From: Mesostigma viride
Taxonomy: Eukaryota > Streptophyta > Mesostigmatophyceae > Mesostigmatales > Mesostigmataceae
Direction: 5' to 3'
Assembly (NCBI GenBank): GCA_009746045.1
Contig: RPFO01000436.1
Coordinates: forward strand, 1,365,772-1,429,771
DNA length: 64,000 nt
The notes below the pieces were generated by a model. The model did no database searches and was not told the DNA's origin. It worked only from the letters and a program-made list of their open reading frames with translations. The stretch's first letter is position 1. Every line of letters begins with the position of its first letter. Shown piece after piece: positions 1-51,238 of the stretch. A program made the translations under genes and the position numbers.

Positions 1-93
1 AGTACTGTACCGGACTTGCATCCGTCACCGTGCGCATGCAATGCAGCCAATTTATTGAGGAAGACATGGCGGCGCATGCTTTATCAGTTTTTC

Positions 94-570: not shown

Positions 571-659
571 CAAGTGTGGGGATGCGCCTGCCCCGGTCTA
601 GGCCGGGGGGCGCAGTATAAAACGATGCAGCTCCGTTGGAGGAGTCGGCAGGGCGCACT

Positions 660-848
660 CCAGCGGACACGCTGGGGCCCTGCTGGTTTTGGGCGTCACG
701 CCATCATCCTGATTTCCGGTTTGGCTCAACTTTGACTGTATCCTGCCTTGGACAGAGCCGGCGGGGCGCACTCTAGTGGATACACTAGGGCTCTGCGGGT
801 ACCTGCGTTGACAGGTGCAGGGGAGGCGCACTCTAGCAGCCACGCTAG
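660..848 (+). ncRNA. three covarying hairpins in E0 3' region
   Basis: Three copies of a short hairpin lie at 660-675 (CCAGCG-GACA-CGCTGG), 773-788 (CTAGTG-GATA-CACTAG) and 833-848 (CTAGCA..CGCTAG, with one mismatch). Each follows GCGCACT and precedes GGGCY. Stem changes are compensatory between copies and between elements (see E1 and E2). This suggests a selected RNA structure in the 3' UTR rather than random repeats. Function is unknown. Confidence 0.5.
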
Positions 849-905
849 GGCTTCCCCCTCTACAACCATTCCAGATGCGGCCGGGGACGGCCAGGTTGGA
901 GATGC

Positions 906-1059
906 GGGTGTTATATGGTGGCAGCCGCCTGGGACTTGCGCACAATTTGCCAGTCTCTCGGTCTACCAAGGCCTGCAAGCGGCTTAAGCATATAATTTTG
1001 CAATAAACAAGTTCTGGTGCCTTCTCAAACAAAGTGAACCTGAAAGCATGCACAGAGGA
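906..1059 (+). repeat. E0 split repeat B1
   Basis: 154-bp repeat, repeated as B2 at 1584-1737. It ends in ...CACAGAGGA and includes an AATAAA (in GCAATAAACAAG), which probably serves as the poly(A) signal. Confidence 0.85.
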
Positions 1060-1534
1060 TGGTTGATCTTACGATCTGGATTCCCTGATTTGCGACTAAG
1101 GGGAGCGGAGTGCGAGTCGGTGCCGCTGCCTCATGGCTGATCTGCGAGAAATGCTCATGGAAAGGGCGAAAGTCCCTGCAAATGACCTCTGGACTGCTTC
1201 CAAGTACTTGGATGTAGTTCAAAGTACTTCATTGGTACTACAGGGTAGTACAATCTACTTCAAACTAGTTCAAACTAGCTCAGGCTAGTAAAGATTCGTT
1301 CAGGTGTAGCACAACCTGCCTAGGAGGTGGTATGACCACCTGGGTTGAAGTAGACAGTGACTAAACGTAGTACAATGTCGAAAGAATCAGTACAAATGGG
1401 TTCTTTGTAGTACAACTGTTCAGTGGCACCTGGGCGCCGCGCCAGTACTGTACCGGACTTGCATCCGTCACCGTGCGCATGCAATGCAGCCAATTTATTG
1501 AGGAAGACATGGCGGCGCATGCTTTATCAGTTTT
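1060..1534 (+). repeat. E0 split repeat A2
   Basis: Starts TGGTTGATCTTACGATCTGG and ends ...TTATCAGTTTT. It is the second copy of the element's 5' terminal A repeat (end of A1 at 1-90). The middle is rich in GTTCAAACTAG/GTAGTACAA-type short repeats. Confidence 0.85.
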
Positions 1535-1583
1535 CCCCACCCACCCACCCTCTTTTGTTTGTTTGTTTGTTTGTTGTCTCTGG

Positions 1584-1737
1584 GGGTGTTATATGGTGGC
1601 AGCCGCCTGGGACTTGCGCACAATTTGCCAGTCTCTCGGTCTACCAAGGCCTGCAAGCGGCTTAAGCATATAATTTTGCAATAAACAAGTTCTGGTGCCT
1701 TCTCAAACAAAGTGAACCTAAAAGCATGCACAGAGGA
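1584..1737 (+). repeat. E0 split repeat B2 (right terminus)
   Basis: Second copy of B1. It is separated from A2 by a 49-bp CCCACC/TTTG-rich linker (1535-1583). The element ends at ...ACAGAGGA and E1 coding sequence resumes at 1738. Confidence 0.85.
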
Positions 1738-2095
1738 CCAGCAGAAGGAGGGGACGGGACTTGGGTGGGCATCCAAGGAGAGGATGGAGCTGGCCCAGAA
1801 CCTGTGCCACGTCTGGGATACGCTTAACAAGGAGCTCATTCCCAACGTGTGCAGCGAGCTGGCGGGCGTGGAGTACCTGGCGCTCTGCGTGGAGGCTCTC
1901 CTGCTGGTGGAGACCAGCGGGTCTTGGAACGCGTCCGGGTACATGCTGCCCTACCGGCCGGCAGGGGGTGTCCGCACGCGGGCGGCCCGACGAGCGCTGC
2001 GGGCACACAAGAAGGAGCGCGATGCGTTGGCGTCGGCGCGAGGAAAGGAGGACAAGGCGGAGGGAGGAGTGGCGGGCTCTTCCCAGAAGAAGTGA
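1738..2095 (+). pseudogene. ORF1 (gag-like) C-terminal fragment of E1
   Basis: Conserved C-terminal block of the DIRS gag-like protein, cut at its 5' side by E0. The pattern LNKELIPNVCSELAGVEYLA followed by EALLLVETSGSWN aligns with E2 ORF1 residues ~415-470 and with E3 ORF1 (LFKELGPAAGELAGVEYLM). It has a Lys/Ala/Glu-rich tail and a TGA at 2093-2095. Pol lies in the -1 frame and overlaps this end. Molecular function of the block is unknown; oligomerisation or RNA binding would be usual for a gag. Confidence 0.7.
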
Positions 2096-3060
2096 GAGGG
2101 CGAGGTGTATTCCCCCTCCCAGAGGTGGCCATCAAGCCCCTCGACCGCGCGCGCCTACGGTCCCGACGTAGGTATCAGCGGGCCATGCGGCGGCGGGCCC
2201 TGCTCCTGCGCAGCGCGCGAATCGTGGATGGCCTCAACTGGTTGTGGAGGGGAGCACAGGAACCGCCTGAAACGGGTCCTGTTGGTGGCATGCGGATGGC
2301 TTTGCCCGCACCTGTTGCCCAGGAGCCCGCGGGTTGCGGTACCAGCGGGGTGTCCTTAGTGACTCCCTGCACTGCGGCCCAGCAGGCGGCCCTACAAGGG
2401 CTGGAGATTGCCGCCCAGGTCCATGAGCGCCGGCTGAGAGCCGTAGCGGCAGAGGACCTGGTGCATGACGTTGAGTCTGGGCCCTATGGGCCCGACGGGC
2501 AATATGAAATAATTGCCCCGGAGAGACTTGCGCTGCCCGCGGGCGGAGTGGCGGGCAGCGTGCCGCTGATGGACTGCCTCCCCCCCCAGTGGAGGGAGGT
2601 ATATGGCAATATAAAAAATATTTTGAGGGAAGAGGTAGCGCAGCCAGGGCGTCCACGGCGAGTAACGCATGGCTGTGCGAGCGACACGGAGTACGCGCGC
2701 CTGAGCGTGCGGCTGGCGGAGACCGGGATGACAGAGTACAGCGAGGAGGAACCACCGGTCACCAACGGCCTGTTCGGCGTGCCCAAGCGCGATCCAGGGG
2801 TGGTTGACCCGTCAGCCCAGCGCCAGCGACTCATCTGCAACATGGTGCAGAGCAACGACAAGTTCCTCACCCCTGGCAGCTGTTACCTGCCAGATGTGGG
2901 GGCGGTGGCCGAGATGGCAGGGGGCGCGCCCAGCTACTCGAGCAAAACGGACCTGGAGACGTACTACTACCGCTTCTCCGTGCCAACGGAGTGGCGGAAG
3001 TGGTTCGCGCTGCCCCCAGTCTGGTCGGACGAGGTCGGTCAACCAGGGGAGCGCCGCCGT
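2096..3060 (+). pseudogene. pol 5' part (N-terminal region and RT fingers/palm motif A) of E1
   Basis: Open in the -1 frame relative to ORF1, from within ORF1 (frame open from about 1849). Residues read VRGRGVFPLPEV just after the ORF1 stop, then an Arg-rich stretch and GLNWLW. RT begins with NGLFGVPKRDPGVV and RLICNM. Motif A is SSKTDLETYYYRF (catalytic Asp), followed by PPVWSDEVG. E2 is inserted after codon CGT 3058-3060, and the frame resumes at GAG-CTC (9394-9399) as ELYPRFRVLVMGWSHS, so the original sequence was uninterrupted. Confidence 0.8.
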
Positions 3061-3577
3061 GATTGATCTTACGATCGGGATTCCCTGATTTTGCCTGGGG
3101 GAGCGGAGGGATGGAGGTGCGCCGCTACCTTGGAGGCGCTACACCGTTGCCCAGTGGTGCAAGTCGACATGCGGGAGCCAAACGGGGTGGCCACGCCCTC
3201 TCTGGAGGGTCTGACAGCCTTGGATGGGCCTCAGATGTAGTTCGAACTAGTTCAAAGTTAGTACAGGTAGTACAAACTAGTTCAAACGAGTTCAAACGAG
3301 TTCAATCTACTTCAACTAGTATCCAGGGACCCTCAAGATATGCCAGGTGGTTGCTGAACGGTTCTGGCATGACAGAACATGTGTGACATCATAAAAATGT
3401 AGTACAATGTTGAAAAAAGTAGTATCAGGGTCCTAGATCTAGTACAGTAGTATTCTGAGGTCATTCTTACATGGAGCGCCGCGCCAGCGGGGCGCCGCAC
3501 TTGCGTGTGTCACGGATGCAACGTTGATGCGATGTATTTCAAGGTGGTGATGGCTGCCAAGCCAGCTTATCAGTTTT
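3061..3577 (+). repeat. E2 terminal repeat A1
   Basis: Identical by eye to A2 (8697-9214). Starts GATTGATCTTACGATCGGGA, contains tandem GTTCAAACGA/GTAGTACAA motifs, and ends GCTTATCAGTTTT. Probably contains the promoter and the left recombination site. Confidence 0.9.
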
Positions 3578-3819
3578 CAACACAACTAGAGCAATACTTC
3601 ACCGTTTTTGACAAAGTTGGTGTCAAACTAATCGTGAGACAATAGCCGACAACATTTTGACGGTTTTCGCACCAAGTTTTGACGGGTTTGCGCAACGGGA
3701 GTAAAAGTCCGCAAGGTAGAACTGAGTGACAAATTTTCAGTCCGAAATTTTTCTCAGTCTCCAAGATTGCGGAATATTGAGCCTAGTTGTGAGAAATTTC
3801 TTCATCTTTGAATTCTATA

Positions 3820-4530
3820 ATGGCTAGTGATCACGAAGACACCACCCTTGAGGCAGTAGACCGAGATTTCTTATTAAATGTGAAAAAATCGTATTTTCAG
3901 GGGGGCAAGGAGCTGTTAACGACTTTGAAGTTCTTGACTGAGTATCTCGGTCCAAACTGGGCCCAAAGGCTTACTACTATGTCTGAGGGTCGTTTGACAT
4001 CCTTGGGACAGTTTCTCAAGACTGCAGGGCTCCAGATTAGTGAGGGGTCAAGTGATTCCGACATGGGTTCCATGTTGTGCAAGGCCATTACTCTAGAGAT
4101 GAAGAAGCCCCCAGTGGCCACTGGGGGCAAGGGGAAGACTGGTCCAGCCAGGGGCGAAAGGACCCGAAAGGATCCTCCCAGCAACGGCACCGACGAGGAA
4201 GAGGAGGACGCGACGAGCTCTGAGGATTTTTTGGACGCGCGCGAGCAGCTGGCCCCTGCTGCTGCTCGCGCCAAGGGAAAGAAGTCTCAGGGCAGGAACC
4301 GAAAGCTGGCAGAGAATGCTGCCCTTCTGGCGGGCGTCCGCGAGCTCATCGGAGCGGAGTTGCAAGCCCTGGCGCGGGGGAAGAGGAGGGACGCGAGGAA
4401 AGGGAAGAGCCAGCGCGAGGACAAGGGGGGCAAGGGCCATCCGAAGAGCAAGCGCCAGGAGAAGAGACGCGCGCGGCGCGGGAGCAGCCCAGGCTCGACA
4501 GACACCAGCAGTGGGAGCGACGAGAGTCGC

Positions 4531-4584
<54 letters not shown>

Positions 4585-5325
4585 TCCGACAGCGAGAGCA
4601 GAGGCCGTGGCAGGGGCAGGGGTGGCGCTCGGTCGCGCCGCGACAAGTCCCGGGAGCGACGTGGGCATGGCAGGGGCCGTTCTGCGGAGCCCAAGGGGCG
4701 TCGGGATCGCTCCCGCGAGCGTCGCAAGGAGCGGCAGCGGTCCAGCAGCCGGAGCACGAGTCGGGACTCCTCCCAGCGGAGCTCGCGTCGATCGCGGGAG
4801 CGTGTGAGGGAGAGAGACCTGCGCCGAACCACCAAGGGGGTGCGTCTCCCCCGGCGAGCTTTCAAAGTGGCCTGGCGCCTGTTGGTCAAGGACCGCGACG
4901 ACAGGGTGCTGCCGCTGCAGGTGCTGGATGCGCGCCAGGTCGCGCACGGGAGCCTGCAGGCCCGCTTGGCCCTTCGCAAGGAGCAGGAGGGCGTTGGGGC
5001 TGCACCGGGAGCCCCCCGCGGGTGGAAGAACAGCACGCACCATCTGGTGTGCAACAACCTGACCTACATTCTGGATGTGGCCATCCAAGAGCTGGGGGAG
5101 GATGTGGTGACGGAGCTGGCCTGCTTCGAGTACCTGGCGCGTGTGGTCGAGGCGTTCCTCATGGTGGAGAAGACCAGCGGCTGGAACAACGGGGCGATGC
5201 ACCTGCTGCCACTGGTGGAGGGCAGTACTATTGGAAGCGCAGCAGCCCGGGCAGCGCGGAAGGCGGCTCGCCAGGAGGCGGAGCTGGCATCGGCGGCGGC
5301 GGCGGCGGCCAAAAAGGACAAGTGA
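3820..5325 (+). CDS. ORF1, gag-like protein with SR-rich domain (E2)
   Basis: 501-residue ORF with an ATG at 3820; an in-frame TTG at 3808 is a less likely start. N-terminal ~90 residues (FLLNVKKSYFQGGKELLTTL) are probably helical. Next comes an acidic TDEEEEDATSSED stretch, a basic segment, and a 15-Ser run encoded by (AGC)n at about 4532-4577. Then ~90 residues of RS/RE/RD dipeptides resemble SR splicing-factor domains. The C-terminal ~150 residues (from GVRLPRRAFKVAWRLL) are conserved in E1 and E3. No CCHC knuckle is visible. It is expected to package the RNA; the SR-like tract suggests nuclear or RNA-processing interactions, which is inference. A 433-aa minus-strand ORF here is only the Ala-rich shadow of the Ser/Arg codons. 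Confidence 0.85.
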
Positions 5326-7487
5326 GGGGCAGGGGTGTGCTCCCGCTGCCAGTGAAGATGGTCCCCCGCTCGACCGCAGCCGCCTGCGATCCAACCGCAG
5401 GCTGCAGCGCGCTCTGCGTGCCAGAGCAAGGCTGCGGTGTCAAGAGCGGGCCACAAGGGGCCTGAACTGGCTGTGGGGCAGGACCCGGGAACGGTCCGGT
5501 GGACCGGCGGTGCAGCAGCAGGCTATTACTGCGAGCCCCTGCACCGTCGCCCAAAGGGCCGCCCTACAAGGGATGGAGGATGCTGCCCGCGTCTACAACC
5601 GCCGGCTTACCGCCGTAGCGGAGGCGACAGACACGGGGGACGCAGAGCCCGCGCCATACGGGCCGGGCGGTCAATACGAAATTATTGACCCGGAGAGGCT
5701 GGCACTGCCAAAAGGAGGAGCTGCAGGTAGTGTCAAGCTGCTGGACTGCCTGCCGGAGGCATGGCAGAGGACGTATGAGGACATAAACAACATTCTACAA
5801 AGATGCGACGCGGAGGCGGGGGCGTGGATGCGGCGGGGCCGGGTGTCTCATGGTTGTGCAAGCGATGCGGCGTACGCACGACTGAGCATCAGGCTGGCGG
5901 AGACGCGGATGATCGAGTACAGTGAGGAGGCGCCCCTGTGGTGAACGGCTGTTTTGCCGTCCCCAAGAAAGACCCCGGGGTTGTGGAGCCCAGCGAACGA
6001 CGGCAGCGGTTTATAGGGAATATGGTGCCGTGCAACCGGCGCTTCCTCAAGCCGCCTACCTGTTACCTGCCTAACTTGGGCGAGGTCGCTGAGCTGAGTG
6101 TGGGGGCGCCATGCTATTCGGGCAAGACAGACCTTGACACCTACTATTACCGGTTCGAGGTACCTGAGAGCTGGCGCCCCTATTTCTCGCTGCCCCCCGT
6201 GTGGTCCGATGAGGTCGGCCAGCTGGGACGACGGCGAAAGTTGTACCCCAGGTTCCGGGTCCTTGTCATGGGCTGGAGCCACTCGGTGGTCCTTGCACAG
6301 GTTGCCCACCTGCACTGTCTCTACGGGGCGGGGTGCTCGATGCCAAGAGAGGGCTGTCATATCCCATGCACTTGATGGGGGTGCGCACAGTGCGCGGGGA
6401 TGGCATGGACCGGCTGGAGTTGGTGGAGAGCGCAGCCAGTGCAGCGTGGCGGCTGCTGCCGGAGGATCCCCCACATCCCGCTCAGCTGGTCATGATCGAT
6501 GATCTGGGGGTCACCCATGGGCGGAGCGCGGAGGAGACCAACGCCGTGCTCACCAAGGCGTGCGAGGAGAGCTACGGTCCCAAGGGGTTGGTGGTCAACG
6601 AGAAGAAGGTGGAGAGAGCTGAGGAGGGGCGCCCGGTGGAAATCTTGGGGATTGAGTTCTGCCAGGACGGGTCCATGCGGCCGAGCGCGGCCCGGATGGC
6701 GGCCTTGGTGCGCGACACGCAGGCAATGCTGGGGCGTGGACGGGCCACTTACCACCAACTGGCCTCGTTGCTGGGACGGTGGGTGTGGGTCCACTTGCTG
6801 CGTCGGGGTCTACTGTCCATCTGGTTTCACGCCTACCGCTTGCTGCAGCAAGTCCTGGTGCACAAGCGGGGCTGGAGCTATCGGCTGTGGGGTAGTGTAA
6901 GGGAAGAGCTCCAGGCTGCAATGGACTTGGCCCCGCTGGTGCATGCGCAGCGCGACCAGCCCCTGAGCTGCACCGTGGTGGCCACTGATGCGTCAACCCA
7001 CGGTTCTGGGGTGGTGTACAGCCGGTGGGAGGCGCCTGCGGTGCGTGGCCTGTCCAACTGTCGGGAGCGGAAGGGCTGGAAGACGCTCTGTGTGGACTCT
7101 GAGACGGCCAGCGTGGAGCGCACAGGGGAGATTGAGCACCGAGCCATGGCAGCGGCGCAGTGGAGGACCGCTCTTGCCCACCGGTGGCTCGATCCCTCGG
7201 CCCACATCAACGAGAAGGAGATTCGTGCGGCTGTGCAAGGGATCGAGTGGGGCCTGCGCTCACAGGTTCACTGGCAGCAACGTCACGTGCGGCTGGTGGA
7301 CAATTCGGCAGTTGTCGGTGCGCTCGTCAAAGGGCGTTCGTCGTCCTACCGGCTGAACGCCTGGTGCCGCCGGGCGATCGCGCTAGGGCTGGCCAGCAAC
7401 ACCCGCTACCACTGGGTGTATGTGAGGTCGGAGCGCAACCCGGCCGACGCGCCCAGTCGTGGTCGATGGGTGCGCAACCTCACTGCG

Positions 7488-7517
7488 GATGGCGACGTGG
7501 AGAGCAATCCGGGGCCA
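7488..7517 (+). other. 2A-like ribosome-skipping motif (E2)
   Basis: Encodes DGDVESNPGP, preceded by RNLTA. It matches the D-x-E-x-N-P-G-P consensus of 2A peptides, where the ribosome fails to join the final Gly and Pro and then continues. It lies immediately after the last RNase H Asp block and before the YR, so skipping would release RT-RNase H and a YR starting with Pro. Activity is inferred from the motif only. Confidence 0.8.
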
Positions 7518-8445
7518 CATGGGCGGCAGGAATTGCTGGAGGCCACTGTGCAGCCCAGCACGCTAGCTGCATATCACCGAGCGCTGAGGGCGTACGTGGA
7601 GTATGGTCAACCCCTCGCTCCCGTGGCCAAGACGGAGGCGGAAGGCGTCTTTTGTGAGTGGCTGGTCAGCGTGTATGAGGAAGGGGGAAGCCGGACCATG
7701 GTTGTGCGCGCATTATGCGGGCTGCAGCTGTACTTCCCCAACGAGATTAAGGGGTGGTACGAGGCGCGTCGCTTGCTGGCCGGCTGGGCGCGACGAGTTC
7801 CCGTGCAGAGCCCTCACCCCGTCCCGTGGCAGCTACTGTACCTCGTGGCAAACATTCTTCGTGCACAAGGCTCGATATTAGCTGCCTGCTGCTGCATCAT
7901 TGTTTTTCAGCAATACTTGCGCATCGGAGAAGCGTTCAAGCTTCGCGTGGGGGACGTGGCTCTGCGCGGGGACTTCCGCCTGGGGCCCAGTAACCAGGGT
8001 GCGCTGCTGCTACGCGACCCCAAGACAGCCAAGGGCCAGGCCCAGGCAGTGGTGGTTGTTGAGCCCCTTTCACTCACGTTGCTTGGCGCCCTGTGTGCTG
8101 GGCGGGCGCACGAGGAGCTGCTCTTTGGCGCACTCAGCTACAGCCGTTTCTTGCGGCGGTGGCACGCCGCCTGGGACCTCCTTGGCTTGCGGGGGATGTT
8201 TTCACCCTACAGCATGCGCCACGGGGGGGCCACCCATGACTACCTGCGCGGGGTACCAATCGCGGACATCCAAAAGCGTGGCCGGTGGCGCCAGTTTTCG
8301 TCCGTGGACCATTACGTGGGGCTCCACCGCGCCCTGCAGGTGCGGGTGCCCCAGGTGGTGTGGGACCTCGCGGGCAGACTGCCCCCCGTGACTGGCGTCG
8401 TCACTTTGGGCCGTAGATTTCGGCCATACTTCGGTGAGGCGCACT

Positions 8446-8461
8446 CTAGCGGACACGCTAG
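8446..8461 (+). ncRNA. covarying hairpin in E2
   Basis: CTAGCG-GACA-CGCTAG, preceded by GCGCACT and followed by GGGCT. It is the counterpart of the E0/E1 hairpins with a C-G pair where they have U-A. Here it overlaps the last codons of the YR frame. Confidence 0.5.
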
Positions 8462-8550
8462 GGCTTCACCAGCTGGAGGGTAAGGATGTGCCCTCCCATG
8501 GCTCCTGACGCGGTTTCCAGATGTACGGCCTGCGGCCAGGTTGGAGATGC

Positions 8551-8696
8551 GGGTCAAGTGGAAGCGGCGGCCAGGGACTGCCAAAAAATATTTTATGTCT
8601 CTCTGTCTACTAAGTCCGGTCGGCTTCAACATATAGTGTAATAAACAAGTTCTGGTGCCCTTCAACCAGAAGTGGACCTAGGCAATGCACAGTGGA
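8551..8696 (+). repeat. E2 split repeat B1
   Basis: 146 bp, starting GGGTCAAGTGGAAGCGG and ending GCACAGTGGA. Contains AATAAA (GTAATAAACAAG). Repeated as B2 with about one difference. Confidence 0.9.
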
Positions 8697-9214
8697 TGAT
8701 TGATCTTACGATCGGGATTCCCTGATTTTGCCTGGGGGAGCGGAGGGATGGAGGTGCGCCGCTACCTTGGAGGCGCTACACCGTTGCCCAGTGGTGCAAG
8801 TCGACATGCGGGAGCCAAACGGGGTGGCCACGCCCTCTCTGGAGGGTCTGACAGCCTTGGATGGGCCTCAGATGTAGTTCGAACTAGTTCAAAGTTAGTA
8901 CAGGTAGTACAAACTAGTTCAAACGAGTTCAAACGAGTTCAATCTACTTCAACTAGTATCCAGGGACCCTCAAGATATGCCAGGTGGTTGCTGAACGGTT
9001 CTGGCATGACAGAACATGTGTGACATCATAAAAATGTAGTACAATGTTGAAAAAAGTAGTATCAGGGTCCTAGATCTAGTACAGTAGTATTCTGAGGTCA
9101 TTCTTACATGGAGCGCCGCGCCAGCGGGGCGCCGCACTTGCGTGTGTCACGGATGCAACGTTGATGCGATGTATTTCAAGGTGGTGATGGCTGCCAAGCC
9201 AGCTTATCAGTTTT
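8697..9214 (+). repeat. E2 split repeat A2
   Basis: Second copy of A1, directly joined to B1. The B1/A2 join presumably records the junction of a circular intermediate (inference from the PAT-like model). Confidence 0.9.
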
Positions 9215-9249
9215 CCCCACCCACCCACCCTTTTCTGTTTTGTCTTGGG

Positions 9250-9395
9250 GGGTCAAGTGGAAGCGGCGGCCAGGGACTGCCAAAAAATATTTTATGTCTC
9301 TCAGTCTACTAAGTCCGGTCGGCTTCAACATATAGTGTAATAAACAAGTTCTGGTGCCCTTCAACCAGAAGTGGACCTAGGCAATGCACAGTGGA
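9250..9395 (+). repeat. E2 split repeat B2 (right terminus)
   Basis: Second copy of B1 after a CCCACC-rich 35-bp linker. Ends GCACAGTGGA; the last GA is also the first two bases of the E1 codon GAG that resumes at 9394. Confidence 0.9.
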
Positions 9396-11580
9396 GCTCT
9401 ATCCCAGGTTCCGTGTTCTGGTGATGGGGTGGTCCCACTCGGTCCTGCTGGCGCAGGTGGCGCACATGCAGACCCTGTTGGGGCCGGGGAAGCTGAACCC
9501 CGGGCTGAGTGTGAGCGTCCCGATGCATCAGCTCGGGGTGCGCACAGTGCGTGAGGGAGGACGGGAGTGGATGGAGTTGGTGGGGGCCGCCGAGCTTGAC
9601 TGGCAGCTGCTGCCCGAGGACCCTCCTCGCCCGGCACAGTTGGTCATGATCGACGATCTGGGTACCACACACGCGTGCAGCGCAGCGGAGGCGAAAGCGC
9701 TGCTGGACCGCGCATGCACCGAGTGCTACGCGCCAGCTGGCCTGGTGGTGAATGAGAAAAAGGTCGAGCGGGCGCGGGAGGGCCAAGCTGTGGAGATCCT
9801 GGGCATCGAGTTTCACCAAGATGGGAGCTTGTGGCCATCGGCGAAGCGACTGGCCCTCCTGGTCCACGACACCGAGGCGGTGCTGGCCCGGGGACGAGCA
9901 AGCATGAGCTACCATGAGCTGGCCTCCCTACTGGGACGCTGGGTATGGATCCAGCTGCTTCGCAGGAGTCTGCTAAGCATCTGGTTCCATGCCTACAGGA
10001 TGCTCCACCAAGTGCTGGCCCTCCGCAAGGGAGGACGCTTCCAACTCTGGGCAAGTGTGCGCCGGGAGCTCTGGGCGGCTGTCTGCCTGGCTCCCTTGGT
10101 GCATGCGCAGCGCAACCAGCCGCTGGACACCACCGTCGTGGCCAGTGACGCGTCGAGCCGGGGCTCCGGTGTGGTGTACGCCCGTCTGGCAGAGGCAGAC
10201 GTGAAGGCTTTGTCCAACTGCCGTGAGATAAAGGGGTGGAAGACTCTGTGTGTCGGGTCGGAAGAGGTCGGTGTGGAGCGCACGGGGGAGAGGGAACATC
10301 GGGCGGTGGCGACCGCCCGCTGGCGTGTGGCGGTGAAACACCGGTGGAGGGACGCGGGGGCGCACATCAATGAGAAAGAGGCGCGCGCAGCCGTGCAGAG
10401 CCTGGAGTGGGGGCTGCGCACGCGGGCCCGGTGGGGGCGACGGCACGTACGGCTGGTGGATAGCTCCGCCGTTCTAAGCTCACTGGTGAAGGGGCGGTCA
10501 TCACCTTACCGCCTCAACACGTGGTGCCGCCGCGCTGCCGCCCTGGGCTGTGCCAGCAACACCAGGTACCACTGGGTGTACATCCGCTCGGAGCGAAACC
10601 CCGCTGACGCGCCCAGCCGGGGCCGGTGGGTGCGGGACCTTACCGCCGATGGCGATGTGGAGAGTAACCCGGGGCCGGGAGGGCGGCAGGAGCTACTGGA
10701 GAGCACCGTGCTGCCCGCGACCCTGCGCAGCTACCATCGCGCAGTGATCGCGTACCTTCTTTGGGCTGAGCCCTATGGTGCTGTACCGCCGGAGGAAGCG
10801 GAGAGCGTGTTCTGCGAGTGGCTCGTGTCTGTCTACGAGGATGGAGGGGGAGCAGGGCGTTCCATGTGCATGAGGGCGCTGTGTGGGCTGCAACTGTACT
10901 ACCCCAGCCAAGTGCAGGGGTGGCGCGAGGCCCGCCGGCTCCTGTACGGGTGGCAGCGACGCGTGCAAACGCATAGCCCCAATCCGGTGCCGTGGGAGCT
11001 GCTCTAACTGGTGGTGCAGATCCTCCGCTGGCAGGGGGCGCCCATGGCAGCAGCCGTGTGCGTCATCACTTTCCAGCAATACCTGCGCATCGGGGAGGCC
11101 TTCAAGCTCCGAGTGGGGGACGTGGCGCTGCGCGGCGACCGTCGCCTGGGGCAGCGAGGACTGGGCGCGCTTCTTCTGCGGGATCCCAAGACAGCCAAGG
11201 GGGGTGCACAGGCGGTGGTGGTGCAGGACCCCCTCTCGCTGTACGTGCTGGAGCGCCTGTGCGCTGGGCGGGAGCCCGAGGAGCCCTTGCTTGGGAGCCT
11301 CAACTACAGCCAGTTCTCTCGTCGGTGGCACGCGGCGTGGGATGTTCTGGGCCTGCGGGGGATGTTTACGCCCTACTCCATGCGACATGGTGGGGCAACG
11401 TACGACTACCTGCAGGGCGTTTCACTCCCAGACATCCAGAAGCGCGGGCGTTGGCGCCAGTTCAAGTCGGTGGACCACTACGTGGGCCTGCACCGTGCTC
11501 TAGCGGTGCAAGTGCCGCGGTGGGTGTGGTTGCTGGCTGAGGAGTTCCCCCCCGCTCAGTGGAGTTCACACTGGCAGTAG
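9396..11580 (+). pseudogene. pol 3' part of E1: RT palm - RNase H - 2A motif - tyrosine recombinase
   Basis: Continues the E1 pol frame after the E2 insertion. RT motif C is VMIDDLGTTHA. RNase H residues are SDASSRGSG, INEKEARAAV, VDSSAVL and NPADAPSRG. The 2A motif is at 10648-10677, and the YR follows. A single nonsense codon TAA at 11005-11007 lies where E2 has a Tyr codon (VPWQLLYLV). The same frame then continues to a TAG at 11578-11580 with box I QQYLRIGEAFKLRV, DPKTAKG, YSMRHGGATYDYL, GRW and VDHYVG. The otherwise intact sequence implies a young element inactivated by E0, E2 and this one substitution. Confidence 0.85.
10648..10677 (+). other. 2A-like ribosome-skipping motif (E1)
   Basis: Encodes DGDVESNPGP after RDLTA. 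The peptide is identical to E2, while its codons differ at the third position (GAT/GAC, AGT/AGC, AAC/AAT, CCG/CCA). That supports selection on the peptide. Confidence 0.8.
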
Positions 11581-11669
11581 CAAGTGTGGGGATGCGCCTG
11601 CCCCGGTCTAGGCCGGGGGGCGCAGTATAAAACGAAGCAGCTCCGTTGGAGGAGTCGGCAGGACGCACT

Positions 11670-11858
11670 CCAGTGGACACGCTGGGGCCCTGCTGGTTTT
11701 GGGCGTCGCGCCATCATCCTGATTTCCGTTTTGGCTCACCTTCGACCGTATCCTGCCTTGGACAGAGCCGGCGGGGCGCACTCTAGTGGATACACTAGGG
11801 CTCTGCGGGTACCTGCGTTGACAGGTGCAGGGGAGGCGCACTCTAGCAGCCACGCTAG
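11670..11858 (+). ncRNA. three covarying hairpins in E1 3' region
   Basis: Hairpins at 11670-11685 (CCAGTG-GACA-CGCTGG, with a U-G wobble where E0 has C-G), 11783-11798 (CTAGTG-GATA-CACTAG) and 11843-11858. Spacing is the same as in E0. Confidence 0.5.
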
Positions 11859-11915
11859 GGCTTCCCCCTCTACAACCACTCCAGATGCGGCCGGGGACGG
11901 CCAGGTTGGAGATGC

Positions 11916-12069
11916 GGGTGTTATATGGTGGCAGCCGCCTGGGACTTGCGCACAATTTGCCAGTCTCTCGGTCTACCAAGGCCTGCAAGCGGCTTAAGCA
12001 TATAATTTTGCAATAAACAAGTTCTGGTGCCTTCTCAAACAAAGTGAACCTGAAAGCATGCACAGAGGA
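11916..12069 (+). repeat. E1 split repeat B1
   Basis: 154-bp repeat ending CACAGAGGA, with an AATAAA signal. Nearly identical to E0 B1. Confidence 0.85.
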
Positions 12070-12731
12070 TGGTTGATCTTACGATCTGGATTCCCTGATT
12101 TGCGACTAAGGGGAGCAGAGTGCGAGTCGGTGCCGCTGCCTCATGGCTGATCTGCGAGAAATGCTCCTAGAAAGGATGAAAGTCCCTGCAAATGACCTCT
12201 GGACTGCTTCCAAGTACTTGGATGTAGTTAAAAGTACTTCATTGGTACTACAGGGTTGGTTGATCTTACGATCTGGATTCCCTGATTTGCGACCAAGGGG
12301 AGCGGAGTGCGAGTCGGTGCCGCTGCCTCATGGCTGATCTGCGAGAAATGCTCCTGGAAAGGGTGAAAGTCCCTGCAAATGACCTCTGGACTGCTTCCAA
12401 GTACTTGGATGTAGTTCAAAGTACTTCATTGGTACTACAGGGTAGTACAATCTACTTCAAACTAGTTCAAACTAGCTCAGGCTAGTAAAGATTCGTTCAG
12501 GTGTAGCACAACCTGCCTAGGAGGTGGTATGACCACCTGGGTTGAAGTAGACAGTGACTTAACGTAGTACAATGTCGAAAGAATCAGTACAAATGGGTTC
12601 TTTGTAGTACAACTGTTCAGTGGCACCTGGGCGCCGCGCCAGTACTGTACCGGACTTGCATTCGTCACCGTGCGCATGCAATGCAGCCAATTTATTGAGG
12701 AAGACATGGCGGCGCATGCTTTATCAGTTTT
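12070..12731 (+). repeat. E1 split repeat A2 with internal tandem duplication
   Basis: Starts TGGTTGATCTTACGATCTGG. The first ~187 bp (12070-12256) are repeated in tandem at 12257-12442 with a few differences. E0's A2 has the unit once. Ends TTATCAGTTTT. Confidence 0.85.
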
Positions 12732-12780
12732 CCCCACCTACCCACCCTCTTTTGTTTGTTTGTTCGTTTGTTGTCTCTGG

Positions 12781-12934
12781 GGGTGTTGTATGGTGGCAGC
12801 CGCCTGGGACTTGCGCACAATTTGCCAGTCTCTCGGTCTACCAAGGCCTGCAAGCGGCTTAAGCATATAATTTTGCAATAAACAAGTTCTGGTGCCTTCT
12901 CAAACAAAGTGAACCTAAAAGCATGCACAGAGGA
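12781..12934 (+). repeat. E1 split repeat B2 (right terminus)
   Basis: Second copy of B1 following a CCCACC/TTTG linker. The element ends ...CACAGAGGA and flanking DNA starts AAACGAGTGCC. Confidence 0.85.
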
Positions 12935-13128
12935 AAACGAGTGCCTTTTAGTCTCCACCTTCCCTGCCTGCCCTGCCACGGAGGCAGGTGGTCACTATAA
13001 CTCGCGGTTCCATCGTACGGTTACGGATACGGTCCATGACAACTCCTCGTACAGTGCGTGAAATCCCTCGTACGGGCGACAAAATTCCTTCATACGGTCC
13101 ATGACAACATCCTAGAGTTTCGGTTCTT
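12935..13128. other. non-coding flank with possible terminus of another element (GTGGTCACTATAAC)
   Basis: No gene is seen. GTGGTCACTATAAC near 12987-13000 recurs at 22015-22029. Both are followed by GTAC/CGTACGG-rich sequence and an AAAAATATA tract. This suggests the end of a shared element family with unknown other end. Confidence 0.3.
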
Positions 13129-33550: not shown

Positions 33551-33643
33551 GCCGACGAACTTTTTTTTCCTCAAAGACTTTAGTTGACCCTTTAAATGCA
33601 TGAAAATGCAACTTTCAAAAATGAAGTACAATTTGAAAAATGT

Positions 33644-33672
33644 AGTACAAATCCAGGTGTGCTTAGGGTCAG
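33644..33672 (-). repeat. right terminal inverted repeat of the 14.8 kb element
   Basis: Perfect reverse complement of 18869-18897; ends ..GTGCTTAGGGTCAG. The flanking hexamer AGGCAG may be the target duplication. Confidence 0.8.
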
Positions 33673-33998: not shown

Positions 33999-34447
33999 GG
34001 ATTCGTGGCATGCACTTGTTGTCATTGTGCAGCGAAGCTGCCATCTATAGTGCTATGACATCCTCTGCATCGAGGCTGCCAGAGCTCTGGGTGCATTATA
34101 CCATTCAATAATGTATTATGTTGTCAATGACGCATTGTAATAAAAGAGACCGGTGTTAGATGGTCAATAGTTTGCAAGTCCACAATATACAAATGTACTT
34201 GAAGGATGTATTGCAATATCGATCTAAGTGTGGCAGGTGGCAAGTCACCGCCATTATGCTCATTAATGAATAGCAGAGAGCATAGTACATAGTAACATTT
34301 GTTGGCTGCAGGGCCACACATCCTTAGAATACCCCGTACTTTAAGCCTTGGCCTCAATAATACCCCGTACTTTTTTACCACAATTTCAAAAATACCCCGT
34401 ATGCCGTACTGCGTACTTTTTCGCGTACTTTTGACCCCTCGCAAAAA
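33999..34447. other. spacer with ATACCCCGTACTT short repeats
   Basis: No gene seen. Several copies of AATACCCCGTACTT-like sequence occur at 34325-34430. Similar CCGTACTGCCGTAC sequence lies just right of E3 (40655-40680), so this is probably the interrupted target of E3. Confidence 0.45.
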
Positions 34448-34826
34448 TCGGGGTTCTCTGAACATAGTTTCTTTATAGTGATACGGAAGGGGAGCCGCTG
34501 ATGCTAGGTGAAATAGAGCTGGGTGATGTGATCGTAATAAGGTTGATTAGGCTTCTAGTGTACGAGTATTACGGATGATATGGCCTAATTGTTGCGGCCC
34601 ATACCTTGACGGTGTGCTGAGTACCTTGACGACGGATTTTTGCGTCTAGGTTCTCCTAGCAGATCTGTGATTGCGGACGGGTTTGCAACAAGCAATATCT
34701 GAAGTAAAACTTGACGGCTAAAACTGTTTAGAGGCCGTTGCCGGATCTGGCCGTTGGTAGAGAGCCGTTGGCCTTGAAACACGATAAAAGCTTGCTCACC
34801 TAGCTCATGGCGGTCTCTTTTGTTTT
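34448..34826 (+). repeat. E3 terminal repeat A1
   Basis: 379 bp, TCGGGGTTCTCTGAACATAG...CTTTTGTTTT; one difference seen from A2. Confidence 0.9.
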
Positions 34827-34897
34827 AACGAAGGCGGCGACAGGGGTCAGGGGCAGCGTAGCTGACGCCCGGAATTCCTTTCTGCAAAGCGGCTGGG

Positions 34898-35956
34898 ATG
34901 CCGAAGCCCGGGCGGAAGCCAGGTTCGACAGGTGCTGGGAAGCAATTACCGAAAGCTAATCCCGAGGTGCCGACAGCTACTAAACAGACGGGAAAGGGCC
35001 GACTAGGCTGGCCGACGCAGAAGAAAAGGCTCCATCAGGAGCTCTCCACTTGCTCGGGCCTGCCTGAAGTGTGCGCTGCCTTTGAGGCGGTCCTCGGGAC
35101 CGACTGGGTAACTACTGTCAGCCGGTGGTCTGCGGCCCAGCTGGAGTCCGTCGTTGGACTGCTGGTCGACCACGTGGACGGGCCTGAAATTCTGGCAGCA
35201 GCGGACCCAAACGAAGCGCTAGTGGCAGCCCTCCAAAGCGCCCGGGACTTGGCGGACTCGGACGAAGAGGAGATGCAGCCACCACGCCGGCCCACGAAAG
35301 GGGCGAAAAAGGGGACGAAAAAAGTCGGAAGCCCAGCCCCGAGCAAGGGAAAGGCCGCGGGGGATGTGAGGGAGCAGCTCTTGGAGCTGGCGGCTATTAT
35401 TGGCAAGCAGGGGCAGGCGGGCAAAGAAGAGGAGGAGGAGGAGGAGTCCGAGGAAGAGGATTTCCTGACGAAATTGAAGGATGCGCTGGCCGGGGCAGAT
35501 GGGGCTTCCAGGAAGCCGAAAAAGACCAAAGGGGTGACGCTGCCCACTCGAGCACAAGTGGTGAATTGGAGGGTGCAAGAGAGAGTGCTCCCCGAGGTGC
35601 TCGAGGATGCCAACGACAATGGAGGGGGGATAAAGAGTTGGATCATGGCTACTCGCCAAGGGGGGTGGAGGAACCAGGAAAGCAGGAAGGTGGTCATGAA
35701 CATCGCCCTGGCCATGGACACACTCTTCAAGGAGTTGGGGCCGGCAGCCGGGGAGTTGGCTGGGGTAGAGTATCTCATGAGGGTGGTGGCAGCCATGCTC
35801 CTAGTGGAGAGCCAGGGGTCAGGAGGGTGGAAGGTGGCTGGCCACCTCCTTGCTCTCAAGGAAGATGCCTCCTTGGTGAGCAACCCGGCCATGAAGATGG
35901 CCCTGCAAAGCGCCACGATGATGGAGAAGCTGGGCAAGGCCCAGCAAACCAAGTAA
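34898..35956 (+). CDS. ORF1, gag-like protein (E3)
   Basis: 352 residues from the ATG at 34898 (MPKPGRKPGSTGAGKQLPKA). N-terminal basic region, acidic EEEEEEESEEEDFLTK near residue 180, and a conserved C-terminal block GVTLPTRAQVVNWRVQERVL followed by LFKELGPAAGELAGVEYLM shared with E1 and E2. It lacks the SR-rich tract of E2. Stop TAA at 35954-35956. Pol is in the -1 frame and that frame is already open ~390 nt upstream of this stop. Confidence 0.85.
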   Translation: MPKPGRKPGSTGAGKQLPKANPEVPTATKQTGKGRLGWPTQKKRLHQELSTCSGLPEVCAAFEAVLGTDWVTTVSRWSAAQLESVVGLLVDHVDGPEILAAADPNEALVAALQSARDLADSDEEEMQPPRRPTKGAKKGTKKVGSPAPSKGKAAGDVREQLLELAAIIGKQGQAGKEEEEEEESEEEDFLTKLKDALAGADGASRKPKKTKGVTLPTRAQVVNWRVQERVLPEVLEDANDNGGGIKSWIMATRQGGWRNQESRKVVMNIALAMDTLFKELGPAAGELAGVEYLMRVVAAMLLVESQGSGGWKVAGHLLALKEDASLVSNPAMKMALQSATMMEKLGKAQQTK

Positions 35957-38900
35957 ACACCGAAAGGGTAAACCGCTCCCCCTTCCCACTGCCTCTTCCT
36001 ACAATGCCTCTAAGCACTACGTGGGGGAGAGTGAGGTCAGCACGCAGACGCCAGCGTGCAACTCGCCGCCGCCGGACCTTCACTCTACAACACAAGGTGA
36101 TTACGTGGTTGAATTGGCTATGGCACGGGGGGGCAGACCCTCCGCCTAAATCTGGAGGCGCGTGCTCCAGAGGAACGGCGGAGGCCCTGAAAAGGGTCAA
36201 GAAGCACTGCGAGTGGTACAGTCGCCGCGTAACCGGCGTTGCGACAGGCCCCGCAGAAGGAAGTGATCTAATCTATGGGAAATGTAATAAGTATGAACAA
36301 CTTGTGGCGGAGCGGGTGAGTCTGCCGAAGCGCGAGGTGGCAGGAAAGGCGAAGCTGCTGGATTTGCTGGCGCTACGACCTAGTTGGCGAGAGGTGTACG
36401 CGAGCGAAGCCAACTGCATCAAGCCGGAGGTGGCTGCCAGTGCGAGGTATTGGAATGTACCTGCCCCCAGCCGAGGGTGCACCATGGCGGAGTGGGGCAA
36501 GTTGATGGGGAGGGCAGCGGACGTGGGGATGGTGGAGTTCCGAGAGACGCGGCCAAAGTGGGTAGACGGATGTTTTGGGGTGGCCAAAGGAGTGGGGGAG
36601 TTAAGGCTCATTGTGAATAAGAAGTTGGGGAACGCACTGTGGGTGGACCCCCCTAAGACGGTGTTACCCCACCTGGGCATATACTCGGAGGTCTATATCA
36701 AGGGTCGGTGCTACACGGCCAAGAGCGATCTGGTCTCGTATTACTATACCATCCAAGTGCCGGAGTGGTGGTGGGATTATCAAGGGCTACCTGATGTGTG
36801 GTCCACCGATGTCGGGCTGCCGGGGCGGCGGAGGAGGGTGTGGCCAGTGCTGAAAGTGCTGGCCATGGGGCACTCCCACGCTGTAGCGCTAGGGGAAGCC
36901 ATCCATGAGATGGTCCTCTATGCCACGGGCGCTTTGGATCCTAGACGGCAGGTGAACCGCCTCACAAGTGTAGGGGAGCTGACCGTGCTTCGGAATGCAT
37001 GGGGTAACCCAACCGCCCTAGCCATCGAGTACAAGGAGGAGAGCACGAGGGAGATGCAAATCGACCTTGAGGACCCCCCTGCCCCTATGGTATCCATCAC
37101 TATTGATGACCTGGTGGTCAGCAATGGGCGCACGTGCGAGGCGGTGAATCGCTTAATCGCGAGTGCTATTGAAGACGGGTACGCGCCTAACAACCTTGTG
37201 CCCTCCAAGGACAAGACGATCATGGCTAGCCCGGAGGGGGAGGACGAGCTAGAAGCTCTGGGTGTTGTTCACCGGCGGGATGGGGTGTTGGAGCCGACAG
37301 CTAAGCAGCTCACCCTTGTGGTTGCGCACACTCGTGTACTCCTCGAGAGGGGACGCGCTACCGCTGAGGCGCTGGCGGCCGTCGTGGGCCGGTGGGTGTG
37401 GCTGCAGATGCTCAGCCGCACTTGCTTGTCCATATGGCAGCAGAGTTTTAAGTTCATCAACCTCAAGGGGTGGGGCCAGCGAACGCGACCTTTGTGGCAA
37501 GGTGTGCGCGATGAGCTCGAGTGTGCCATGGCGTTGGCCCCCATGCTCCGTGTGGACCGGGGGGCTGCCCTGGCTCCGGTGGTGGTGGCCTCGGATGCGT
37601 CTAGTTTTGGGCAGGGGGTTGTCTACGCTGAGATGGCCCCAGCTGAGGTGACGGAATTAGCTCGGGCCCGGGAGGTGCGGGGTTACCCAACCCTCCTCAC
37701 CCCAGGTGAGGCCATGTATGCCGGGCCTAGACCCTTGACCAAGGCCGCGGAAAAAGCCATCATCCACGGGCGATGGCGCGTCGGGATCAAGAGTCGCTGG
37801 CGCGATTCGACCATGCACATCAACGAGAAGGAAGTGCGGGCCGCTGTGAAGGGGGTGGAGCGCTCGGCCCGGAACCTCGGAACATGGGGTAAGCGGGTGG
37901 TGAGGTTAGTGGACTCCACTGCCGCTTTGGGCTGCTTGGCTAAAGGGCGTTCCTCTTCTTACCGGTTAAACAAGCAATGCCGCCGGTTGTGCGCTCTTAC
38001 GTTGGTCACCGGCAGCCGCTCACAATGGGTCTGGACGCCAAGTGAGCTTCAGCCTGCGGATGGGCCTTCGCGGGGGCTTTCCATGGCTGCCTCGGTGGCC
38101 GGGTGGGTCCGCGATTTGACTCGCGAGGGTGTTCATCCCAATCCCGGGCCTCGGCTTGGCGCTAGCTACTTGACCCTTCTTGAGGGCAAGGTGAAGCCGG
38201 CTACTTTGATGGTTTACCATCGGGGTCTTAGGTCCTTTTTCGCATGGTGGGCGAGCCGGCGGGGTCGGGTTGGCAGCTTGTTGCGCGGCTTGACGATAGA
38301 GGAATACTATTGCGAGTATGTCGCTTGGGCGCACTCACGGTGTTACAGCCGCCAGTTGTGTGTCAATGCGCTTATGGGCCTGAATTTGTACTTCCCCGGG
38401 AGGTGCGGGATTGGGCCTTGGCACGAAGTGTTTTGGCTGGCTGGCGCACGTTGGCACCCCCTCGTGCCCCCCCCCCATTCCATGGGAGGCTGCGTTTGCG
38501 CTTGCTTGTACTATGGTGCTCCAGCGGCAGCCTCGTGCGGCTATGATGGTCATCGTTATTTTCCAACAATACCTGCGGGTATCGGAGGCGCTCAACCTGT
38601 TGGTCGGCCATGTGCGCTTGCAGCCTGATGTTCGGTTGCGGGGTTCGCAGCGGGGCGCCTTGTTGTTGATGTCAGCTAAGACGGCTAAGGGGGAGGTGCA
38701 GTCTGTGGTGATCGAGGATGTCATGACTGAGACCCTCTTGCGGGCTTGTATGCGTGGCAAGGCGGCCTGGGAGCGGGTGTTCCCTTACGATTATGCCCAG
38801 TTCAGCCGGGTTTGGCATCAGGCCACGCAAGCTTTGGGGGTCGACACGGTGTTTACCATTCACGGGCTGCGGCATGGGGGGGCTACCTATGATTTTTTGC

Positions 38901-39079
38901 GGCAGCGCAGCATGGCTGATATTCAGCATCGGGGTCGCTGGCGCAGCAGCAAAACTGTCGCCCACTATGTGGGATTGCACCGGAGCTTGGCCCTCACCCT
39001 TCCTGACGCCCTGGTTCGGGCTATCGCCGCCTGCCCCCCGCGCATTTGGCGGAGCGTCTTTTCTCTGCCTTCCTCTTAA
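35957..39079 (+). pseudogene. pol of E3: RT - RNase H - degenerate 2A - tyrosine recombinase
   Basis: RT has GCFGVAKGVGELRLIVN, motif A AKSDLVSYYYTIQVP and motif C ITIDDLVVSNG. RNase H has SDASSFGQG, INEKEVRAAV, VDSTAALG and QPADGPSRG. A degenerate 2A (GVHPNPGP) is at 38128-38151. The YR has QQYLRVSEALNLLV (R-x-x-E), SAKTAKG, HGLRHGGATYDFL (H-x-x-R intact, unlike E1/E2), GRW and VAHYVG. The frame is continuous from 35566 to ~38467, then shifts in a run of ten C's. The recombinase continues in the other frame to a TAA at 39077-39079. Translation start of pol is unclear: an ATG at 36004 or the -1 overlap with ORF1. Confidence 0.85.
38125..38151 (+). other. degenerate 2A-like motif (E3)
   Basis: Encodes EGVHPNPGP at the same position as the 2A of E1/E2 (after RDLTR). 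NPGP is kept, but the Asp and Glu of D-x-E-x are Gly and His. Skipping is probably weak or lost. Confidence 0.5.
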
Positions 39080-39155
39080 GTTCCCTTCATTCTTGTCTTA
39101 TGCGTCCACCGGTTTTTGTTTTGCCCCTGGCTTGGGTCGCCAGGGAGGGATGTAA

Positions 39156-39289
39156 GGGTAAGGCTAGCCTTTTTGGACATAAAGTGTTCCCATGGGTAAG
39201 GATGGCCAGTTGAGGGCCACTTCCCGATGTGCTCTACTTATTGTTTTAATAAAGAGTCTGGTTACCCTGGAGTTCCACGGTTAATAGAA
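39156..39289 (+). repeat. E3 split repeat B1
   Basis: 134 bp, GGGTAAGGCTAGCC...CGGTTAATAGAA, with AATAAA (TTAATAAAGAGTC). Confidence 0.85.
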
Positions 39290-39668
39290 TCGGGGTTCTC
39301 TGAACATAGTTTCTTTATAGTGATACGGAAGGGGAGCCGCTGATGCTAGGTGAAATAGAGCTGGGTGATGTGATCGTAATAAGGTTGATTAGGCTTCTAG
39401 TGTACGAGTATTACGGAAGATATGGCCTAATTGTTGCGGCCCATACCTTGACGGTGTGCTGAGTACCTTGACGACGGATTTTTGCGTCTAGGTTCTCCTA
39501 GCAGATCTGTGATTGCGGACGGGTTTGCAACAAGCAATATCTGAAGTAAAACTTGACGGCTAAAACTGTTTAGAGGCCGTTGCCGGATCTGGCCGTTGGT
39601 AGAGAGCCGTTGGCCTTGAAACACGATAAAAGCTTGCTCACCTAGCTCATGGCGGTCTCTTTTGTTTT
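39290..39668 (+). repeat. E3 split repeat A2
   Basis: Second copy of A1 (379 bp), joined directly to B1. Confidence 0.9.
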
Positions 39669-39701
39669 CCCACCCGCCCTCCCTGTGTGTTGCCTGTTTG
39701 G

Positions 39702-40619
39702 GGGTAAGGCTAGCCTTTTTGGACATTAAGTGTTCCCATGGGTAAGGATGGCCACATTACAATTCGTTCAAGTGGCCCGCCGGAGCGGCTGTACAATTTT
39801 TCCCAGTGAGCGCGCTGCCAAGTGTACTTGTGGGCAAATTTTTAGGTGCCCCGTCACTTCGAGGTACTAAAAATTAGGCTACGGTACGAATTCAGCGAAT
39901 TTCAGCGAATTTTCAGTCGAACCAAAGGAAGTGACGCCAACTACCAAAAAGTTTCCGTTACGAATTTTCAGCCCAACACTCGCGCAAAATGAAGTGACGG
40001 CAACTACCAAAACTTTTCCGTTACGAATTTTCACTCCCACACGTTTGCACAAAAGACTTGACGGCAACTACCAAAAAGTTTCCGTTACGAATTTTCAGTC
40101 CCACACTTCGCGCAAATTTTAGTAGGGCTGCACGCAAGCTACCTTTCAAAATTTTGCGCTAGTATGGAACGCATTTCATTCGTCTGGAGGAACGCTGCCC
40201 GCCAACTACCCCCGTTCAGAAAGTTCCGCCGAAATTTACCCGAGATTTGGAAATCTGAACGTCCGCGCAAATTTTAGTAGGGCTGCACGCAAGCTACCTT
40301 TCAAAATTTTGCGCAAGTATGGAACGCAATTCATTCGTCCGGAGGAATGCTGCTCGTCAACTGCCCCCGTTCAGAAAGTTGCGCCGAACTTTACTTGAGA
40401 TTTGGAAATCTGAACGTGCGGTTGGAGTTTCGCGGGGAAACCCAAGTTCCCAAGTAATTCACCAATGACGCGCTTCGAACACTTGTCCGCTAAAACCTAA
40501 GCAGCCGCTCCGGCTGGCCACTTAAACGAAACTTGATGGTTGAGGGCCACTTCCCGATGTGCTCTACTTATTGTTTTAATAAAGAGTCTGGTTACCTTGG
40601 AGTTCCACGGTTAATAGAA
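39702..40619 (+). repeat. E3 split repeat B2, interrupted
   Basis: Copies of the B1 halves are at 39702-39754 and ~40539-40619, separated by a 784-bp insertion. The right terminus is ...GGTTAATAGAA. Confidence 0.85.
39755..40538. mobile_element. 784-bp inverted-repeat element inside E3 B2, with internal tandem repeats
   Basis: Ends TTCGTTCAAGTGGCCCGCCG...CGGCTGGCCACTTAAACGAA are inverted repeats (about 27 of 29 match). Inside are three ~65-70-bp tandem units with TTTCCGTTACGAATTTTCA (39950-40100) and two ~140-bp units starting CGCGCAAATTTTAGTAGGGC (40108, 40264). Exact borders are uncertain by a few bases and no clear target duplication is seen. No ORF. Confidence 0.7.
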
Positions 40620-40676
40620 TACCTGTATTTTTACAGTACGCAAGGGTTTTACCGAGTACCCCGTACTGCCGTACAG

Positions 40677-51203: not shown

Positions 51204-51238
51204 CAGCAGCAGCCATGTTGTCAAAGAGAAGCCTCACT

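Follow-up and report, generated by a model that had tools for sequence, protein, structure and literature searches.

Does a retrotransposon that encodes its reverse transcriptase (RT), RNase H, and tyrosine recombinase (YR) in one frame free the recombinase by 2A (StopGo) ribosome skipping? The question is raised by a 64,000-nucleotide stretch of Mesostigma viride DNA (contig RPFO01000436.1, positions 1,365,772 to 1,429,771; hereafter the window, whose own coordinates are used throughout), in which a peptide resembling the 2A consensus lies between the RNase H and YR regions of such an element. The original prediction had read this peptide as a possible new way of expressing a free recombinase. 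We evaluated it through the element copies present in the window, the sequence, position, and conservation of the peptide, and its likeness to published viral 2A motifs. On this evidence, we put the probability that the block is a StopGo recoding element separating RT-RNase H from a free YR at roughly 78%.

Tyrosine recombinase retrotransposons in the window

The window holds three YR retrotransposon copies that cover the RNase H-YR border (E1, E2, and E3), together with a fragment of a fourth (Table 1). Their coding order is a first ORF (Gag by position; E1 retains its end alone), RT, RNase H, and YR. Split direct repeats in the PAT/Ngaro-type order A1 ... B1 A2 B2 form complete sets in E2 and E3 and a partial set in E1 (11924 to 12069 and 12789 to 12934; 99.3% identity), and in E2 B1 directly adjoins A2. 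Repeat identity of 99 to 100% suggests that E2 and E3 are recent insertions. E2 sits within the pol of E1 (1828 to 11580), a nested insertion involving two members of the same element family; residues 303 to 546 of the E3 pol match 2218 to 3048 and residues 551 to 1125 match 9397 to 11085, i.e., both flanks of E2. What remains of the further copy, in 1 to 1737, is the YR end only (85 to 558), the RNase H-YR border being absent, and the repeats in this region resemble the terminal repeats of E1 at 98 to 99%.

Searches for inverted repeat pairs returned none in 1 to 13000 (at least 40 nt) and none in 33000 to 41500 (at least 30 nt). A methyltransferase domain after RNase H, which is a DIRS1-like trait, was likewise not found: the gap between RNase H and YR consists of the 2A block and short linkers, and Pfam gave no methyltransferase match. 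For the element initially described as DIRS type, the DIRS1-like type is therefore rejected; E1, E2, and E3, which have split direct repeats and for which inverted repeats were not reported, are of the PAT/Ngaro type within the DIRS order.

Table 1. Features of the three element copies, in window coordinates
Feature	Position	Strand	Remarks
E1 pol, 5' part	1828..3059	+	Interrupted by E2
E1 pol-YR, 3' part	9396..11580	+	In-frame stop 11005-11007 inside YR
E1 2A block	10627..10677	+	WVRDLTADGDVESNPG followed by P; skip point before Pro codon 10675-10677
E2 element	3060..9395	+	Nested in E1; A1/B1/A2/B2 split direct repeats
E2 repeats A1 and A2	3060-3578 and 8697-9215		519 nt, 100% identity
E2 repeats B1 and B2	8551-8696 and 9250-9395		146 nt, 99.3% identity
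E2 first ORF	3793..5325	+	Gag by position only; no Pfam family
E2 pol-YR	5111..8483	+	Broken in RT part; uninterrupted from 6213 to 8483
E2 RNase H region	6978..7463	+	Catalytic motifs VATDAS, NEKE, LVDNSA, PADAPSRG (first to last; read by eye)
E2 2A block	7467..7517	+	WVRNLTADGDVESNPG followed by P; skip point before Pro codon 7515-7517
E2 tyrosine recombinase	7515..8483	+	PF00589, E 1.2e-07, above cut-off; motifs; predicted second product starting with Pro
E3 element	34446..40620	+	A1/B1/A2/B2 split direct repeats
E3 repeats A1 and A2	34446-34826 and 39288-39668		381 nt, 99.7% identity
E3 repeats B1 and B2	39209-39290 and 40539-40620		82 nt, 98.8% identity
E3 first ORF	34862..35956	+	Gag by position and likeness to E2 first ORF (E 3.4e-13)
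E3 pol frame	35188..38628	+	First in-frame ATG 36004; spans RNase H and 2A, into YR
E3 2A block	38104..38151	+	WVRDLTREGVHPNPG followed by P; skip point before Pro codon 38149-38151
E3 YR remainder	38384..39079	+	Other frame; PF00589, E 6e-07

No copy is intact, each being affected by frame changes, interruption, or a stop; in all three, the frame is uninterrupted from RNase H across the 2A block into YR. The E2 copy is broken in its RT part by two frame changes, one near 5941 and the other between 6348 and 6462, and the frame of E3 changes between 38427 and 38435. The E2 pol has no ATG before 5573, and the first in-frame ATG of the E3 pol lies 48 nt past the end of the first ORF. The E3 pol frame also stays open for >750 bases inside the first ORF (35188 to 35956), a stretch for which the GC-rich sequence makes a chance open frame likely.

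The Pfam recombinase profile PF00589 exceeds its cut-off in E2 and E3 and falls just short of it in E1 (26.3 of 27.1 bits). PF00336 gives a weak match, under its cut-off, at the RNase H end, and no Pfam RT match was recovered in the elements at E values of 1 or less. Motifs of RT and RNase H were located by eye in all three copies (IDDL; VA(S/T)DAS; NEKE; LVD; PAD(A/G)PSRG). The segment LLE..V.P.TL..YHR, which follows the 2A block, we read as the probable start of the first domain of the recombinase. Farther downstream, E2 (8208 to 8231) and E1 (11374 to 11397) have YSMRHGGA versus HGLRHGGA in E3 (38861 to 38884), the usual first His of this recombinase motif being replaced in two of the three copies. 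A PDB sequence search gave a single match (E 0.58), which we took as chance, and an AlphaFold2 model of the E2 RNase H-2A-YR segment, built on a six-row alignment, had a mean pLDDT of 39.2, too low for a fold search or for evidence on separate folding of the two products.

Outside the YR elements, the window encodes Copia-type polyproteins at 46925 to 51220 (minus strand, 1431 aa) and 57894 to 62012 (plus strand, 1372 aa), both with RVT_2, rve, and Pol_BBD domains and neither containing NPGP. It further contains a plus-strand ORF with a DUF7869 domain (30140 to 30886; E 2.7e-12), which is followed by a 575-aa ORF without a Pfam match (30953 to 32680), and blocks of an 8-base tandem repeat (AACGGTGC) at 33000 to 33556 that recur at a larger spacing. 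Rfam searches at the gathering score and a tRNA scan each returned no matches in the window.

A 2A-type block at the RNase H-YR border

The complete blocks read WVRNLTADGDVESNPGP in E2, WVRDLTADGDVESNPGP in E1, and WVRDLTREGVHPNPGP in E3. The peptide GDVESNPGP, originally singled out in E2 as an exact match to the 2A consensus at a domain border, is encoded there at 7491 to 7517 (core DVESNPGP, 7494 to 7517) in the ORF 6213 to 8483, and both claims were borne out, with RNase H motifs upstream of the block and YR motifs downstream of it in all three copies. The interval first proposed for it, 7479 to 7530, does include the motif and ends 13 bases beyond it. E1 carries the same nine residues at 10651 to 10677, as had been claimed. 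E3, correctly reported to keep NPGP at the same border (38140 to 38151), has GVHP where E1 and E2 have DVES; it retains not merely NPGP and belongs to a second published form with His at p14 (see below). Accordingly, the StopGo core (D/G/C/N)(V/I)ExNPGP is present in frame and exact in two of the three copies (E1 and E2), E3 deviating at p14. E1 and E2 have 1 residue between the last RNase H motif and the W of the block and 5 between the last P and LLE..V.P.TL..YHR; the corresponding numbers for E3 are 9 and 8.

Six-frame translation of the window yields four NPGP occurrences, three of which are those of E1, E2, and E3; the fourth is on the minus strand at 52288, with stop codons nearby. Taken alone, NPGP as a DNA pattern is not significant (4 occurrences versus 1.63 expected, with at least 4 in 7 of 100 shuffles). 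The expected number of D(V/I)ExNPGP matches, from residue frequencies, is 9e-5, and a 38-base degenerate pattern allowing up to three mismatches matched E1 and E2 and nothing in 100 shuffles. The three blocks do not constitute independent evidence, because the copies share ancestry.

Upstream residues match two registers of viral 2A peptides

Six upstream StopGo motifs have been derived from viral sequences, of which motifs 1 and 4 have WV(R/K)DLTx[acidic]G in common, offset by one residue relative to the core; the residues at p12 and p15 are described as D and S alongside motif 4 and as G and P alongside motif 1 (Li et al. 2026, PMC12846837). According to the same source, activity was almost completely lost in nearly every case when the characteristic upstream residues were altered, and His at p14 is a rare variant that was >95% active in its own natural context. 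The E1 block, WVRDLTADG-DVESNPGP, has the motif 4 form with D12/S15, and the E3 block, WVRDLTREG-VHPNPGP, has the motif 1 form, which is one residue shorter, with G12/P15 and His at p14. E2 has the motif 4 form with D12/S15 but with Asn in place of the Asp of DLT that is typical of the class.

We compared these contexts with a profile of the nine upstream residues, core left out, made from 23 viral peptides of the DLT class that were selected by eye among those in Table 1 of Luke et al. 2024 (PMC11512398). Among the 94,175 stop-free nine-mers in the six frames of the window, E1 (29.8), E3 (29.3), and E2 (22.0) rank first to third, with the fourth-best nine-mer scoring 11.1. The training peptides themselves score 23.7 to 31.8, so that E1 and E3 fall inside their range and E2 under the lowest of them; judged by its sequence, E2, with Asn for Asp, is the weakest of the three blocks. 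A chance origin of the block was rejected on the 38-base pattern, the D(V/I)ExNPGP expectation, and these profile ranks.

The closest individual likeness is to aalivirus B1 2A3 (PMC11512398), which agrees with E1 at 16 of 17 residues and with E2 at 15 of 17; the viral peptides nearest to E3 share 13 of 16 residues with it. Aalivirus B1 2A3 is reported to have left no uncleaved product in lysate, and the same source reports that other peptides of this class (Wuhan carp picornavirus 2A1-3, potamipivirus B1, kunsagivirus C1 2A1, and limnipivirus B1 2A1) yielded the upstream product with the downstream one scarce or absent (PMC11512398). GDVESNPGP is tabulated in several iflaviruses and picornaviruses (PMC8623073), and the string WVRDLT was found, among the literature matches listed, in a picornavirus paper only.

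Conservation of the block

Of the 17 block codons, W through the final P, 8 are the same in E1 and E2, 8 differ synonymously, and 1 differs nonsynonymously (Asn in E2, Asp in E1), in keeping with the earlier claim that the peptide is shared by E1 while its codons vary. This 8-to-1 ratio counts in favor of the 2A reading, but the block does not stand out within pol: 61 of 613 17-codon windows are equally conserved, and Fisher's test of block against rest gives P = 0.084. Between E1 and E2, the NG86 method gives dN 0.24 and dS 1.62 for RT-RNase H and dN 0.26 and dS 1.32 for YR, the dS values of 1.3 to 1.6 being near saturation; the protein has been kept throughout. E3 retains 11 of the 17 block residues at 40% identity to E2 in the aligned pol, with flanking linkers of different length. 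It makes the better conservation argument, its one-residue change of register falling on the other published motif. All of this conservation evidence comes from three related, nonintact copies in one 64-kb window. Pattern searches of viral contigs matched 9, 39, 72, and 6 stretches, and one of prokaryote genome contigs matched 32, with no confirmed relative among them; two exact 2A DNA patterns had no matches in viral contigs.

Proposed mechanism and its alternatives

An in-frame 2A-type signal at the RNase H/YR border implies that YR is probably made as a free protein. In the scheme that we favor, RNase H and YR are encoded in one frame with no stop between them. With ...WVRDLTxDGDVExNPG synthesized, the nascent peptide within the exit tunnel would perturb the peptidyl-transferase center, and the ester bond to the tRNA would be hydrolyzed, releasing RT-RNase H with a C-terminal 2A tail. 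The ribosome would then continue from Pro and make a separate YR protein beginning with that residue. Skipping would in this way substitute for a protease as well as for the YR ORF, separate or overlapping, of other DIRS-order members; YR retrotransposons are described as being without an aspartic protease (PMC3783388), and 2A is reported to function in algae, plants, fungi, amoebae, and animals (PMC11512398). The stalling, release, restart, and efficiency assumed here are carried over from published work on viral 2A and would hold for these elements by analogy. What E1 to E3 themselves display is the sequence with its core, the open frame, the position, the match to the upstream motifs, and the persistence in three copies, and on these grounds the original proposal of a 2A that frees the recombinase from RT-RNase H is supported.

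Skipping could also be partial by design, with both free YR and an RT-RNase H-YR fusion being needed, which is a variant of the favored explanation and not exclusive of it. A precedent is the leader of a sea urchin NLR protein, where a partially active 2A is described as giving two differently targeted forms (PMC4981915), and the deviations of E2 and E3 from the usual residues would suit such an arrangement. We nevertheless consider it unlikely, as the viral peptide nearest to E1 left no uncleaved product.

Rather improbable, in our assessment, is a decayed 2A, in which the ancestor skipped and the block, above all that of E2, is now weak or dead and leaves an RT-RNase H-YR fusion. The E1 and E3 scores inside the range of tested viral peptides, and the excess of synonymous over nonsynonymous change between E1 and E2, speak against decay, whereas the Asn and low profile score of E2, the frame changes or stop elsewhere in all three copies, and a block conservation no higher than that of the best tenth of pol are what it would predict.

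Separate initiation of YR at an internal ATG, with 2A playing no part, is very improbable. E1 and E2 lack Met in the 103 residues preceding the skip point, and their first Met after it (residues 64 and 62, respectively, with Pro as 1) lies inside the presumed first domain of the recombinase; E3, whose first downstream Met is residue 21, does have a Met 22 residues upstream of the skip point that could serve as a YR start. Finally, an ordinary interdomain linker resembling 2A by chance or for protein-structural reasons is scarcely credible, for while the bare NPGP DNA pattern is within chance, the core-free upstream residues head the ranking of the window's nine-mers, and the difference between E1 and E3 coincides with two published registers.

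Comparison with known systems

StopGo is described as only rarely used in cellular genes (Li et al. 2026, PMC12846837), the nonviral carriers named being non-LTR retrotransposons and NLR proteins (PMC4981915). Among the literature matches listed, no title or abstract reports a 2A in a YR retrotransposon; the survey of viral and cellular proteomes by Rao et al. 2025 (Cell Rep 44:115822), whose class B resembles motifs 1 and 4 according to PMC12846837, may include such cases. If the StopGo reading is true, it would add to the YR order another way of expressing the recombinase, freed without a protease. It would likewise provide a natural set of DLT-type 2As for probing how motifs 1 and 4 came to differ in register by one residue, and material for asking whether viral 2As derive from mobile elements or the reverse.

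Within the DIRS order, E1 to E3 are most readily compared with the following. (i) PAT-like elements of chlorophytes, nematodes, and other lineages are described as sharing with them split direct repeats, RT/RNase H, and YR (PMC3266345, PMC8226300); the PAT YR can be inverted (PMC3266345), whereas that of E1 to E3 is in the pol frame, joined by the 2A block. (ii) Ngaro elements are like them in the arrangement A1-[ORFs]-B1A2B2, the order Gag-RT/RNase H-YR, and the lack of a methyltransferase (PMC8547959, PMC3266345), but their YR is given as a separate ORF3 (PMC8547959), in contrast to the in-frame fusion with pol seen here. (iii) DIRS1-like elements are described as having YR in its own ORF, overlapping pol (PMC3266345). 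The kinetoplastid TATE elements have a single ORF in two Bodo saltans copies and three ORFs elsewhere, and the available text of that source mentions no 2A (PMC6681497), as against the 2A of E1 to E3. Non-LTR retrotransposons (L1Tc and the APE type) resemble E1 to E3 in having 2A in frame with retrotransposon proteins, a likeness drawn from their published description; they differ in being non-LTR elements, whereas E1 to E3 carry YR and split direct repeats.

A further resemblance is to the DLT-class viral StopGo/2A peptides, which E1 to E3 match in the core, the upstream residues, and the presence of two registers one residue apart. The two registers mirror viral motifs 1 and 4, which therefore points either to shared origin or to convergence, driven by the ribosome tunnel, on nearly the same 16 to 17 residues; the 2As of different virus families are held to be homoplasic (Luke et al. 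2008, PMC2885027), and convergence is therefore a real alternative to shared origin. On balance, we lean slightly toward the broader view that StopGo, and not an overlapping or separate ORF, is how one lineage of YR retrotransposons produces its recombinase, with registers of one or the other of these two origins. Apart from the Asn of E2 and the His at p14 of E3, what distinguishes E1 to E3 from the viral DLT class is the setting of the block, which belongs to a retrotransposon and lies where RNase H gives way to YR.
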